DNA of 30,887 bases from positions 1-30,887 of IMG/VR virus record IMGVR_UViG_3300022841_000005. The stretch is one strand, 5' to 3'. Under the pieces are notes generated by a model. It was not told where the DNA came from, made no database searches, and saw only the letters and a program-made list of their open reading frames with translations. This document shows positions 19,804 to 27,767 of the stretch, one piece after another. The position numbers and the translations under genes are program-made. The DNA comes from a virus. The first letter of the stretch is position 1; every line of letters begins with the position of its first letter.

Positions 19804-22056
19804 CTATTTGTTTTCGTTATCAAATTTCTTTGCGTAATTGTATATTTGTTGTCTACTAACACCTAACAACTCTGCAAGTTCTGTTTTCTTTATGTTTTGA
19901 TTTGTAGCGTATATCTTTTTAAAATTAATATAATGGTCATCTTTTGAATTTATACTACTTTTTATTTTACCTCTTTCTATACTATTCGTCTTTATCTTCT
20001 TAGCCATATTAATAAAGTACTTAGACAAAATCTCGGCTTTAAGCACACTTTCAACTGTTATAACATCTTTTGTAGTTCCGTTCTCTTCGTTTGATTCTAG
20101 CGTATTTAAAATAAGTGCAAAGCGTGGCACGTATGCTTTCTGCTTTGGCAACATTGATTTCATATATTCGTTTTCGAAATCGCTGTTTTGAATGTCTGTT
20201 ATTTCGTTAAAAATTCTAATCCATTCTATTTTAGCTTCGGGTGTCATTTTCGCAATAATTGGCTTAATCTCATCATCTTCATTAGTCTTAATGCTTTTCT
20301 TTTGAGTTTCATAAAATCGGATGATATAATCTGAATACCAATTAATTTGGCTTTCTTTCATATCCTTTTCAGAATATTTATCTACAGTTATTTCAGGATA
20401 GCAAAATAAAATTCTATCAATAAAACCGTTATCTTTGTTTTCATCCGTGTAAAACTCATCCATAATAGTCGGTTGAATACCTCCTAATATTGGCAAAAAA
20501 GCACGTTCAACAAATGATGATTTTGCGGTTTTTCTGTTTAGGTTTATTTGTTTACCCGACCAACTAGACAACCAATGTTCTTTATCTCCGCCCTCACGAT
20601 ACTTATTCATATCTTTAAAGAATCCAGCTAACTCATCTTTAAGTACACCGATACCGTTTGAATTTTCGTTATGTAATTCTATTAATGCTTCTAGCGTAAT
20701 GTCGTTTACAATAAATTGAGATTTTCGGGGTTGTCTTACCTCTTCCGTAAGACCTTTGTCTTTTTTGCTTAGTGTTTGATAGTTTTCAAATGCTTCTGAA
20801 TCTTTAATATATTTTTTAATTTCTCTATTATTAATCTTTTCTAAAGGGAATGTAATAGCAGAAATAGATGGGGTTTTACCGACACCCGCTTTACCAACTA
20901 AAGACAGCCAAATATTTGCTGATTCGTTCCAACCTTTTTTAACTTCTATCTGCATAGAGTTACCTATAATAATTGAAGATAAAAACAACAACGAACATCC
21001 CATGTAATCAACACTATTATTTAAAGTTTGGTTAGAAACTAATATGTATTGCTGCAAAGATAAAGGTAATATCTCTAAGGGGAATGTATCGTTATAGTCT
21101 ATTGGTTCGGGTTGTGGTTCCGCTGTTTGTTCAAAAGTTTGCGTTTGCTTTAATCTATCGCCATAACCATCTTTATACAATTGTTTAGCTGCTTCGCTAA
21201 AATCGTTGTTATGAATTAAATGAGCATAAACAGAAAAAGCGTTATAAGTTTTCTCAGCGTCAAAAGTTGTGCCTGTGCTAAATAAATACATCAACCCGCT
21301 ATCTTTAAAGATGTATCCTGAATGAGGACTAAGCGAACCGTGTCTTTTTATAATATACTTGTCTTTTATGTTTCTAACTATTTTGAAATCATTAGATATT
21401 AAATCGAAAACAGAAGTTTTATTATTGTAGTCTTCCCAGGAGCTTAGTTGATTTTCTTCGTTGTTATAAACTTTCTTTTCAATTTTTATTACTGGTTGCT
21501 CTTCTACAAAGTTATAAGTTCTTGAAACTGAAAATAGTATTTGCCTATCTTCATCACTAATATAATCTATGTCTTTATATGTCTTGTCGGTTAGGTTTTT
21601 ACCGTCATAATTGAAAACATACCCGCCAATCCCTCTAGTCTCAAGTACGCATTGTTGGTGTCCTTTTAATTTAGCGACTTTTAAATTACCCTCAACTCTT
21701 TTTGATTTATACAGGATATGATACCCAGCGTTTTTAGTTTTATAAATTACAAACTTATCGTTAAAGTCAAAAATATTGTCTTGCAAAAAAGATAAATATT
21801 CGCTCCAAAAATCTTTTTGTTCTTTAGCGGTCGAGAACACTTTTAAATCTACATCAATACATTCTAAGTCAGCGAATCCCGTAACTATTCCAACATTATC
21901 TGTAGTTTTTAACTCGTAATGTTTAGCGAATACGTCTTTACTTATTGGTGTTGTTTGGTATTCCTTCCATTTTGTGTTCGGTATTTTATTGTCCGATACC
22001 GTTATCAAACTAAAGCCTTCGTCTAATAGTCTATTGCATTTGTTTATCTCTATCAT
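19804..22056 (-). CDS. Primase-polymerase / DUF3987 helicase-like replication protein (750 aa)
   Basis: A replication enzyme with several parts. Residues 1-160 are a prim-pol (AEP) domain: NVGIVTGFADLECIDVD with Asp68/Asp70, GYHILYKS with His113, LETRGIGGYV (139-148). Residues 215-300 form a linker domain. Residues 320-620 are DUF3987-like with Walker A GKAGVGKT (388-395) and GVLKDELAGFF (about 470-480). Near the C-terminus a helix-turn-helix (ELAELLGVSRQQIYNYAKKF) may bind the origin. It would prime and unwind phage DNA. The cluster has no separate DNA polymerase, so this protein or the host polymerase must extend DNA. Confidence 0.8.
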   Translation of the reverse strand: MIEINKCNRLLDEGFSLITVSDNKIPNTKWKEYQTTPISKDVFAKHYELKTTDNVGIVTGFADLECIDVDLKVFSTAKEQKDFWSEYLSFLQDNIFDFNDKFVIYKTKNAGYHILYKSKRVEGNLKVAKLKGHQQCVLETRGIGGYVFNYDGKNLTDKTYKDIDYISDEDRQILFSVSRTYNFVEEQPVIKIEKKVYNNEENQLSSWEDYNNKTSVFDLISNDFKIVRNIKDKYIIKRHGSLSPHSGYIFKDSGLMYLFSTGTTFDAEKTYNAFSVYAHLIHNNDFSEAAKQLYKDGYGDRLKQTQTFEQTAEPQPEPIDYNDTFPLEILPLSLQQYILVSNQTLNNSVDYMGCSLLFLSSIIIGNSMQIEVKKGWNESANIWLSLVGKAGVGKTPSISAITFPLEKINNREIKKYIKDSEAFENYQTLSKKDKGLTEEVRQPRKSQFIVNDITLEALIELHNENSNGIGVLKDELAGFFKDMNKYREGGDKEHWLSSWSGKQINLNRKTAKSSFVERAFLPILGGIQPTIMDEFYTDENKDNGFIDRILFCYPEITVDKYSEKDMKESQINWYSDYIIRFYETQKKSIKTNEDDEIKPIIAKMTPEAKIEWIRIFNEITDIQNSDFENEYMKSMLPKQKAYVPRFALILNTLESNEENGTTKDVITVESVLKAEILSKYFINMAKKIKTNSIERGKIKSSINSKDDHYINFKKIYATNQNIKKTELAELLGVSRQQIYNYAKKFDNENK

Positions 22057-22713: not shown

Positions 22714-23205
22714 CTAACAGCTTTCTATTATTTCGTAATTGTTTTTCATTTTCCAAGCCCAAGACTTTTTACGCAATGTAATCATTTCTATCAACTCATC
22801 ACTTTGTTGTTGTGTTAAATCTGAAACTAATTTTTGAACTTCTGTTAAATCTGATTTATCAATTACAACTATTTTCTTTTCTTTCGGTGTCGATTCTTTA
22901 AAAAATAAGTTTAAATAGTTTTTTAATTCTGGGTATGTATAGCAATAGCTTTCAAATTTACCTAATGAATGTAAGTATTTATCGTGGCTATATTGCAAAC
23001 CTCTATTTCTGTAGTATTGTGCCATACTCGATGGACTTACTTTGTGTTTTCTAAACGCTATCGTATTAAACAAGCATCTATATTCGGGATATAAACGACT
23101 TCTAAAATTAATCATAATATTAATATTCAAATCATTTACAATAAACTCTAATATTTTATCTAAATCTTTTTCTACTTTCTTTGTTATCTTGCTATATTTC
23201 TCCAT
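22714..23205 (-). CDS. DnaA C-terminal-like DNA-binding protein (163 aa)
   Basis: Residues 30-85 (NFRSRLYPEYRCLFNTIAFR, then VSPSSMAQYYRNRGLQYSHD) resemble the DnaA domain IV helix-turn-helix, in which a basic loop and a final helix bind DNA boxes. No ATPase part is present. Phages use such proteins as origin or operator binders. The C-terminal half has a predicted helical and acidic region (LVSDLTQQQSDELIEMITL). The gene is preceded by a hairpin that may lower its expression compared with the DUF3127 gene. The octamer cluster at 26.9 kb is a possible target. Confidence 0.5.
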   Translation of the reverse strand: MEKYSKITKKVEKDLDKILEFIVNDLNINIMINFRSRLYPEYRCLFNTIAFRKHKVSPSSMAQYYRNRGLQYSHDKYLHSLGKFESYCYTYPELKNYLNLFFKESTPKEKKIVVIDKSDLTEVQKLVSDLTQQQSDELIEMITLRKKSWAWKMKNNYEIIESC

Positions 23206-23260: not shown

Positions 23261-23605
23261 TTAAAAAGGCAAATCTTTTGCAGCTTCTTCTATTCTTTCT
23301 GTTGGTGTTAACTCGTTGCTTGGTGTGTCGCTTAATTTTTCAATCCTCCAACCTTGCAAAGAATTGAAATACTTAGCTACACCCTCGTTATTAATCCATT
23401 CACGACCCCGTAAATTAATACCAACCTTAACGTTTTGACCTAGTTCGTAAGCGTCTAACAGTTCGCATTTGTCCTGCACAAACTCAATCATAATATCCTG
23501 CGGATATTGGTCTTCTGTTGTTACTACTAACTCACGTTTTTTAAATGCCTTAGCACCAAATTCTGCTGTTTCTCCTACTACTTTAATCGTTCCTTGTACT
23601 TCCAT
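23261..23605 (-). CDS. DUF3127 protein, putative ssDNA-binding OB fold (114 aa)
   Basis: It matches DUF3127 along its full length: MEVQGTIKVVGETAEFGAKA, KKRELVVTTEDQYPQDIMIE, LLDAYELGQNVKVGINLRG, REWINNEGVAKYFNSLQGWR. The fold is predicted to be an OB barrel. The short tail EEAAKDLPF is acidic and ends in hydrophobic residues, like the interaction tip of SSB proteins. Together with position in the replication operon this suggests a single-strand DNA-binding protein that recruits partners. It is the last gene before a hairpin, so it may be made in larger amounts than the genes downstream. Confidence 0.75.
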   Translation of the reverse strand: MEVQGTIKVVGETAEFGAKAFKKRELVVTTEDQYPQDIMIEFVQDKCELLDAYELGQNVKVGINLRGREWINNEGVAKYFNSLQGWRIEKLSDTPSNELTPTERIEEAAKDLPF

Positions 23606-26860: not shown

Positions 26861-26868
26861 CAAAGATA
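26861..26868 (-). promoter_or_regulatory. Candidate early promoter of the replication operon (-7 box TATCTTTG)
   Basis: On the minus strand TATCTTTG fits the Bacteroidetes -7 consensus TAnnTTTG exactly; transcription would begin near 26854, 13 nt before the first ATG. A clear TTG at -33 is not seen (GTTTC occurs there). The octamer cluster begins about 60 bp upstream, so binding there could control this promoter. Confidence 0.5.
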
Positions 26869-26927: not shown

Positions 26928-27214
26928 AGTGTAAAGTAAACTGTAAAGTGTAAAGCGTTTGTAAAGTCGAGTTTACAATTTTTTTTGATGTAACTTATTG
27001 ATTCTCACAGCCTTTAGCTCATATTTGTAAAGTACTTTACACTTTACACCTATATAAATAAATATTTTTATTTTTACTTTTTTTTAAAATTACATTAAAA
27101 AAGTGTAAACTTTACACTCTAAAACTCTGCAACACTAGCTACCATTACAAACAACCCTCAAAACACTTTACACTTTTTTGTAAAGTACTTTACACTTTAC
27201 TTTACACTTTACAA
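26928..27214. repeat. Cluster of about 16 octamers GTGTAAAG / CTTTACAC: candidate origin or operator region
   Basis: The 443-bp divergent gap (26842-27284) has no gene. Sites on the plus strand (some with one or two changes): 26929, 26941, 26948, 26959, 27025, 27103, 27178. Inverted: 26971, 27035, 27042, 27110, 27166, 27188, 27195, 27200, 27207. They form a 17-nt palindrome with C centre (27102-27118), two copies of GTAAAGTACTTTAC (27027-27040, 27180-27193) and a 23-bp direct repeat (27025-27047 and 27178-27200). Between them lie A/T-rich stretches (27050-27100). Iterons with an adjacent AT-rich block suggest a replication origin; a large operator is the alternative. Confidence 0.75.
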
Positions 27215-27284: not shown

Positions 27285-27767
27285 ATGAAAACTATGTTAG
27301 AGAAAGTATTTGACGACCACACTAAGTGGATTAATACAACCAAACGCTTTGGATGCTCTAAAGAAGAGGCAGAAGACATAGTGGGAGATATGTATTATAT
27401 TATAGGTAAGATGCTCAACAAAGGTTTAGATATTAGTTATGGCGATAGTGTAAATTATTTCTATATCTATAGAACTCTAAAGACATCTTTTCTACAATTA
27501 AAGAACAGACAAACAAAAGAGAATGCAATATCTTTAGACAATGATTTTGATGTTTACTTAGAATCATCCGAGCCTATAGACTTTGATATAGCTAATAATA
27601 AAGTATTAGATGCCTTAGATAAAATGCATTGGTATGATAAAAAGATATATAATTTAATTCAATATGAATACTCAATCACTAAGCTACATAAAAAGACGGG
27701 TATAAGCTATCATAGTTTATACAATACATATCGAAAAGTTAAACAACAACTAAAAGAATTGTTATAA
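27285..27767 (+). CDS. Sigma-70-family-like transcription factor (160 aa)
   Basis: Two-domain layout of ECF-type sigma factors. Residues 15-75 resemble region 2: RFGCSKEEAEDIVGDMYYII, then VNYFYIYRTLKTSFLQLKNR. Residues 105-158 resemble region 4 with a helix-turn-helix: DKKIYNLIQYEYSITKLHKK, TGISYHSLYNTYRKVKQQL. An acidic linker joins them. It would direct host RNA polymerase, or act as a transcription regulator, possibly at the five late elements of this genome (inference). It is transcribed away from the octamer cluster. A stand-alone HTH regulator is an alternative because region 2 is only weakly conserved. Confidence 0.6.
   Translation: MKTMLEKVFDDHTKWINTTKRFGCSKEEAEDIVGDMYYIIGKMLNKGLDISYGDSVNYFYIYRTLKTSFLQLKNRQTKENAISLDNDFDVYLESSEPIDFDIANNKVLDALDKMHWYDKKIYNLIQYEYSITKLHKKTGISYHSLYNTYRKVKQQLKELL

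Follow-up and report, generated by a model that had tools for sequence, protein, structure and literature searches.

A dense repeat array around an A/T block in a phage genome record, its probable role as a replication origin, and the primase linked to it

Single-chain initiators and the phage primase

The alpha protein of satellite phage P4 joins primase and helicase in one polypeptide to a C-terminal DNA-binding domain, which binds repeats at the origin (PMC4234260). The Rep protein of SaPIs is a helicase that acts as initiator and, apparently as two hexamers, uses its C-terminal domain to recognise iterons that follow immediately downstream of the rep gene (PMC7581432). For ORF904 of pRN1, a cis element downstream of the gene has been described (PMC4234260). 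Among primases that contain DUF3987, this domain was predicted to be a helicase, and it was speculated that a C-terminal winged helix (WH) recognises the origin (Kazlauskas et al., 2018; PMC5862659). That DUF3987 primases recognise origins through a C-terminal HTH/WH has thus been suggested since 2018, and P4 alpha and SaPI Rep are functional precedents built from other domains. Our literature search, which covered few subscription papers, found no paper describing arrays or a recognition code of the kind reported below.

The DNA analysed here (the window) is a virus record of 30.9 kb. It is probably a fragment because genes run off either end. Its closest terminase matches are in Flavobacterium phages (52% identical) and, judged by this terminase alone, the host may be of Flavobacterium type. 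In the window, a dense array of short repeats separates a leftward replication operon from a rightward gene for a 160-aa sigma-like protein, as had been read from the sequence earlier and as the gene positions confirm. Leftward of the array are encoded SSB, a YqaJ exonuclease, a methyltransferase, a Prim-Pol-DUF3987-HTH primase, a helicase and a 3'-5' exonuclease. Rightward, the sigma-like gene is followed by terminase, about 1.5 kb from the array. Sequence comparison makes it probable, with some confidence, that the array is the replication origin of the phage, or its core, bound by the phage's own Prim-Pol-DUF3987-HTH primase; the array binder is very probably this protein, encoded on the minus strand (Table 1).

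Pfam and fold matches together with the structural model place the primase and the ATPase in one chain with a C-terminal domain of DNA-binding type. PHROGs matches the protein to helicase/primase, and HTH families of Pfam are found across its homologues (set A3). The DUF3987 region matches MCM ATPases with a Z of 9.7 at moderate model confidence, and this likeness is not pressed because residues 449-562 are poorly modelled (pLDDT under 50). Likewise, the HTH is given no named class because the fold search returned generic HTH matches only (E about 0.1 or worse). A search of PDB sequences with the primase profile gave no useful match, and cultured phages gave only partial matches, 21-30% identical.

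The primase is like P4 alpha in that a single chain holds primase and ATPase with a C-terminal DNA-binding domain. P4 alpha has a TOPRIM-type primase and a winged helix, whereas the window protein has a Prim-Pol (AEP) domain, and so is not of the TOPRIM (DnaG) type, together with DUF3987 and a wingless three-helix HTH. The four-cluster layout of the array around an A/T block also sets the window apart from P4. The SaPI origin has an A/T region with iterons on its flanks. As in the SaPI Rep-ori pair, the C-terminal domain would set the specificity for the repeats and the array stands beside the gene in the family, though in the window, unlike in most relatives, 5 kb separate the array from the primase. 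SaPIs use a DUF927 or D5-type helicase, usually have a separate primase and occur in another host phylum, whereas the core of the window protein is DUF3987 (PF13148); in the SaPI texts that we consulted, no residue-to-base code is reported, unlike in these phages. With pRN1 ORF904 the protein shares the Prim-Pol fold (Z 15.5), an ATPase and a C-terminal DNA-binding domain, while the pRN1 origin is a stem-loop of ~100 bp without iterons and is served by an SF3 helicase with a winged helix, in place of repeats and an A/T block. By domain order (AEP, DUF3987 and a C-terminal HTH/WH), the protein resembles primases of the PrimPol-PV1/PrimQH type. The 2018 work on these was a prediction, to which the window family adds cognate arrays and covariation.

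The array and its layout

The original prediction had counted sixteen octamers in the region between the two transcription units. This count stands for degenerate sites, of which about 16 lie at 26929-27214 (an array-trained matrix also scores 16), and not for the exact octamer GTGTAAAG, of which eight copies are present, at 26929-27207. Nine exact copies are found in the whole window against 1.4 expected, and 0 of 100 shuffles reached nine. With one mismatch to GTGTAAAG allowed, the array has 14 sites. TGTAAA occurs 15 times and TGTAAAG 13 times in the array region, the latter within ~340 bp. When the array region was shuffled 5000 times, TGTAAAG averaged 0.28 copies and never exceeded 4. The sites are present in either orientation, in agreement with the earlier description, and of the 16 matrix sites eight fall on each side of the A/T block. 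The palindromes noted earlier were recovered as TGTAAAGTACTTTACA (27026-27041 and 27179-27194) and GTGTAAACTTTACAC (27103-27117), and the direct repeat, first given as 23 bp, is an exact 24-bp repeat of TTTGTAAAGTACTTTACACTTTAC (27024-27047 and 27177-27200). The adjacent A/T block was also recovered, at ~27050-27102 with 4% GC between the inner sites.

Table 1. Positions of the array, the candidate initiator and flanking features in the window
Feature	Position	Strand	Remarks
Initiator candidate, 750 aa, Prim-Pol + DUF3987 ATPase + C-terminal HTH	19804..22056	-	PF13148 E 2.8e-54, PF09250 E 4e-5, HTH families (Pfam)
Recognition helix, residues 735-749	19810..19854	-	735, 736, 740 and 743 covary with array motif
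C-terminal three-helix HTH, residues 708-749	19810..19935	-	Model pLDDT ~90; helices 708-718, 724-731, 735-749
DUF3987 ATPase, residues 304-691	19984..21147	-	Pfam; weak MCM-like fold match
Prim-Pol domain, residues 1-185	21502..22056	-	Fold match to pRN1 ORF904 prim-pol, Foldseek E 7e-7, Z 15.5
163-aa protein, not likely binder	22714..23205	-	No Pfam match
Single-strand DNA-binding protein, replication operon	23261..23605	-	PHROG 4932 E 3e-40
-7 motif TATCTTTG, just outside array	26861..26868	-	Conserved in relatives L004-L006
Left outer cluster, heptamer sites	26929..26978		TGTAAAG x4 on +, one TTTACA on -; -143 to -102 from A/T-block centre
Left inner cluster	27025..27049		Palindrome TGTAAAGTACTTTACA and overlapping 7-bp-spaced copy; sites -47, -38, -31
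A/T block, candidate unwinding element	27050..27102		Between inner clusters, about 4% GC
Right inner cluster	27103..27117		GTGTAAACTTTACAC palindrome; sites +31, +37
Right outer cluster	27166..27214		CTTTACACTTTTTTGTAAAGTACTTTACACTTTACTTTACACTTTACA; sites +93 to +134
Sigma-like/HTH protein, 160 aa, right of array; not likely binder	27285..27767	+	

Among near relatives, L004, L006 and L093 conserve the array, and in L005 it is partly rearranged. At about 640-960 of L005 it is largely rearranged between conserved flanks, and the sigma-like gene there is 98% identical, which suggests recent turnover.

More distant relatives were compared in a set of more than 100 related phage fragments, all uncultivated contigs, from which 53 non-redundant lineages (<85% identity) were drawn. 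The layout is conserved in most of these lineages: on both sides of an A/T gap of ~62 bp, sites cluster at 30-50 bp (inner) and at 80-130 bp (outer), with few sites between, and the median array span is 250 bp. The gap in the window is 62 bp at 4% GC, a low value that is partly selected because the most A/T-rich gap was the one picked, whereas the two-peaked spacing is not a product of this choice.

A large cooperative operator would account for part of this picture. The primase HTH or another phage regulator would then control divergent promoters of the replication operon and of the late/sigma-like genes, and the site would be no origin. The window array does lie between two divergent transcription units. 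Bacteroidota promoters have the -7 consensus TAnnTTTG, and TATCTTTG, just outside the array and conserved, is by this consensus presumably a -7 motif of that type, likely the promoter of the leftward replication operon; promoter-like matches are also seen at the right edge of the array. Yet only 3 of the 53 lineages have the array between divergent genes; in 28 it follows the primase in a same-strand arrangement and in 19 it precedes it in such an arrangement, and still it keeps its layout around the A/T block. Moreover, the protein that covaries with the array is a primase-helicase and not a regulator. We regard an operator in place of an origin as unlikely.

Linkage and covariation of array and primase

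Loci of primase homologues were retrieved by protein alone, and those flanked by 400 bp or more on each side were kept (n = 83). In 79 of the 83 the best array and the primase gene were no more than 1 kb apart, and this zone makes up about 18% of the sequence. The array word reached 5-17 copies at these loci, against a maximum of 3-4 in shuffles. The search was also run in reverse. AT-rich, densely arrayed loci found by the words of the window array almost all encode a primase homologue, which usually stands beside the array. Many TGTAAA-word matches (for example L208, L214 and L225) lay in other contexts without a primase homologue, and a scan of bacterial genomes gave one spurious match only. 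No clear array was seen in L110 and L113, whose homologous primases have a diverged C-terminal HTH and which possibly use another origin type. Cellulophaga phage phi40:1 has no array around its Prim-Pol gene. In two fragments, L235 and L325, AGCCGAA also forms a dense array (16-17 copies per 300 bp), which is unrelated to the first and lies about 5.4 kb upstream of the primase.

The array word varies by lineage and includes TGTAAAG, TGTAACA, GGTTTAA, ACACGAC, ATGTCGC, TGTGAAA, TGCGCAA and others. Array motifs of the 53 lineages were aligned without reference to the protein, and four motifs were not placed in register. It was found that motif similarity tracks the identity of the recognition helix even when the rest of the protein is corrected for (partial Mantel r 0.41); none of 2000 permutations reached this value (maximum 0.195). 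Motifs were also predicted better from the lineages nearest in the helix than from those nearest in the protein body (p 0.001). When the 659 columns were ranked, residues 743, 735, 740 and 736 were four of the six best (hypergeometric P 2e-7).

The associations are specific to single bases. At core position 6, N740 goes with A in 16/16 lineages and R740 with C in 11/11. On a body tree built without the HTH, the N/R740 and A/C states each changed nine times, and all seven supported independent pairs agree (p 0.016). R735 is found with G at position 2 (TG) in 36/36 lineages against 3/13 without R. R736 is found with G at position 4 in 6/9, with three exceptions, against 2/40, and K740 is weakly associated with C at base 7 (9/18 against 1/14). 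A natural series of helices, SRQQIY followed by N, R or K, is paired with TGTAAAG, TGTAACA and TGTAAAC. L352 is a natural case of R740 with TGTAACA, and L247 one of R736 with TGTGAAA. The window helix SRQQIYNY and the window motif are consistent with this pattern. In L246 the primase is 75-76% identical, the helix is SNRQVQRY and the G+C-rich word GGACAT surrounds its own A/T block. From the linkage and the residue-base covariation, the HTH of the primase would determine the specificity for the array word. The residue-to-base code here is unusually explicit.

These results bear on two other candidate binders. The sigma-like protein, bound to the array as an enhancer or promoter for middle/late genes, was considered since it is encoded beside the array and has an HTH-like C-terminus (a weak match). 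Its gene has at least 191 relatives in viral contigs, and its protein no match in the cultured-phage collection. A TGTAAAG array stands upstream of the gene in only three very close contigs and is missing at relatives of 65-71% identity; 20 relatives that were checked have no array of any word, and homologues occur in just 2 of the 53 array lineages. The sigma-like protein was therefore rejected as binder or anchor of the array, a role that we consider extremely improbable.

A DnaA-type origin, bound by host DnaA or by the 163-aa protein, was suggested by the resemblance of the array to an iteron origin and by the original prediction, in which that protein was called DnaA-C-like. Neither Pfam nor PHROGs gave the protein a DnaA match, and a homologue is present in only 1 of the 53 array lineages, so this label was not upheld. 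TGTAAAG is not a DnaA box. The array words change along with the primase HTH from one lineage to the next, which a fixed host DnaA cannot explain. We give a DnaA-type origin next to no likelihood. The other binder proposed at the outset, a primase with a C-terminal HTH, is strongly supported by the linkage and covariation in relatives.

Proposed initiation and related arrays

The reading of the array as an iteron-type origin, also raised in advance, is strongly supported by the relatives through linkage, covariation and the conserved layout. As in iteron origins, the repeats are denser than chance allows, an A/T block lies within them and, by comparison, a putative cognate initiator is encoded in the same replicon. 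We propose that the Prim-Pol-DUF3987 protein attaches through its C-terminal HTH to the ~16 TGTAAAG sites, and that the clustered sites load one ATPase assembly on each side of the ~60-bp A/T block. The block would open, the ATPase would unwind the DNA and the Prim-Pol domain would make the first primers. The same protein may plausibly also repress or activate the flanking divergent promoters as a side effect. Direct binding of the primase to the array is suggested by the covariation, while the later steps, in which two assemblies are loaded, the DNA is unwound and the origin fires, are modelled on the domain content and on P4 alpha and SaPI Rep.

The GC-skew analysis that had been recommended was run and does place the minimum of the window at the array. 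This minimum follows gene orientation, and where genes are codirectional there is none: among relatives with mostly same-strand genes on both sides, the shift was positive in 24 of 43, which amounts to no shift. GC skew is uninformative on the origin because of this dependence.

A packaging (pac), partition (parS-like) or other structural site would leave the primase HTH as the binder with no part in initiation. The nearby terminase genes in the window speak for such a site, and clustered sites are also known in partition loci. The array stays beside the primase in relatives, though, and binding of a primase-helicase to sites around an A/T block belongs to the design of an origin. We consider a structural site very unlikely. 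Under the origin reading, an anonymous cluster of repeats becomes an origin-initiator pair that can be tested, and the 2018 prediction that the C-terminal HTH/WH of DUF3987 primases recognises origins gains support.

Tentatively, these phages may form a large replicon family in which the origin geometry is fixed and the word is switched repeatedly and rapidly, under selection, through a few recognition-helix residues (735, 736, 740 and 743) as a readable amino-acid-to-base code. Selection of this kind, if true, could for example bar competing phages or satellites from the same origin. The covariation is a natural mutational scan of a DNA-binding helix, in which N, R and K at residue 740 appear with matching bases in many independent lineages. 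It would let the origins of uncultivated phages be predicted from protein sequence alone, and it offers simple orthogonal replication modules.

Bacteroides and Parabacteroides elements also carry DUF3987-HTH genes with short arrays directly 3'. Their proteins are 25-29% identical with a match that starts at the ATPase region, and the arrays are shorter and of putative function. If they work alike, the arrangement would be a general design of mobile elements of Bacteroidota, and those in cultured elements would be a tractable system. CTGAAA is found eight times in pFunn3_1, GTTGAC seven times in plasmid 19 of P. distasonis and ACTGCA eight times in the fecal phage MT836643. A fourth word among the short arrays near DUF3987 genes of Bacteroides/Parabacteroides elements and fecal phage contigs is CTGCAA, with eight copies. 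Short word arrays were seen at or near the 3' ends of DUF3987 genes in L359 (6300-6450), L362 (5250-5430), L356 (4020-4140) and L364 (about 4940).
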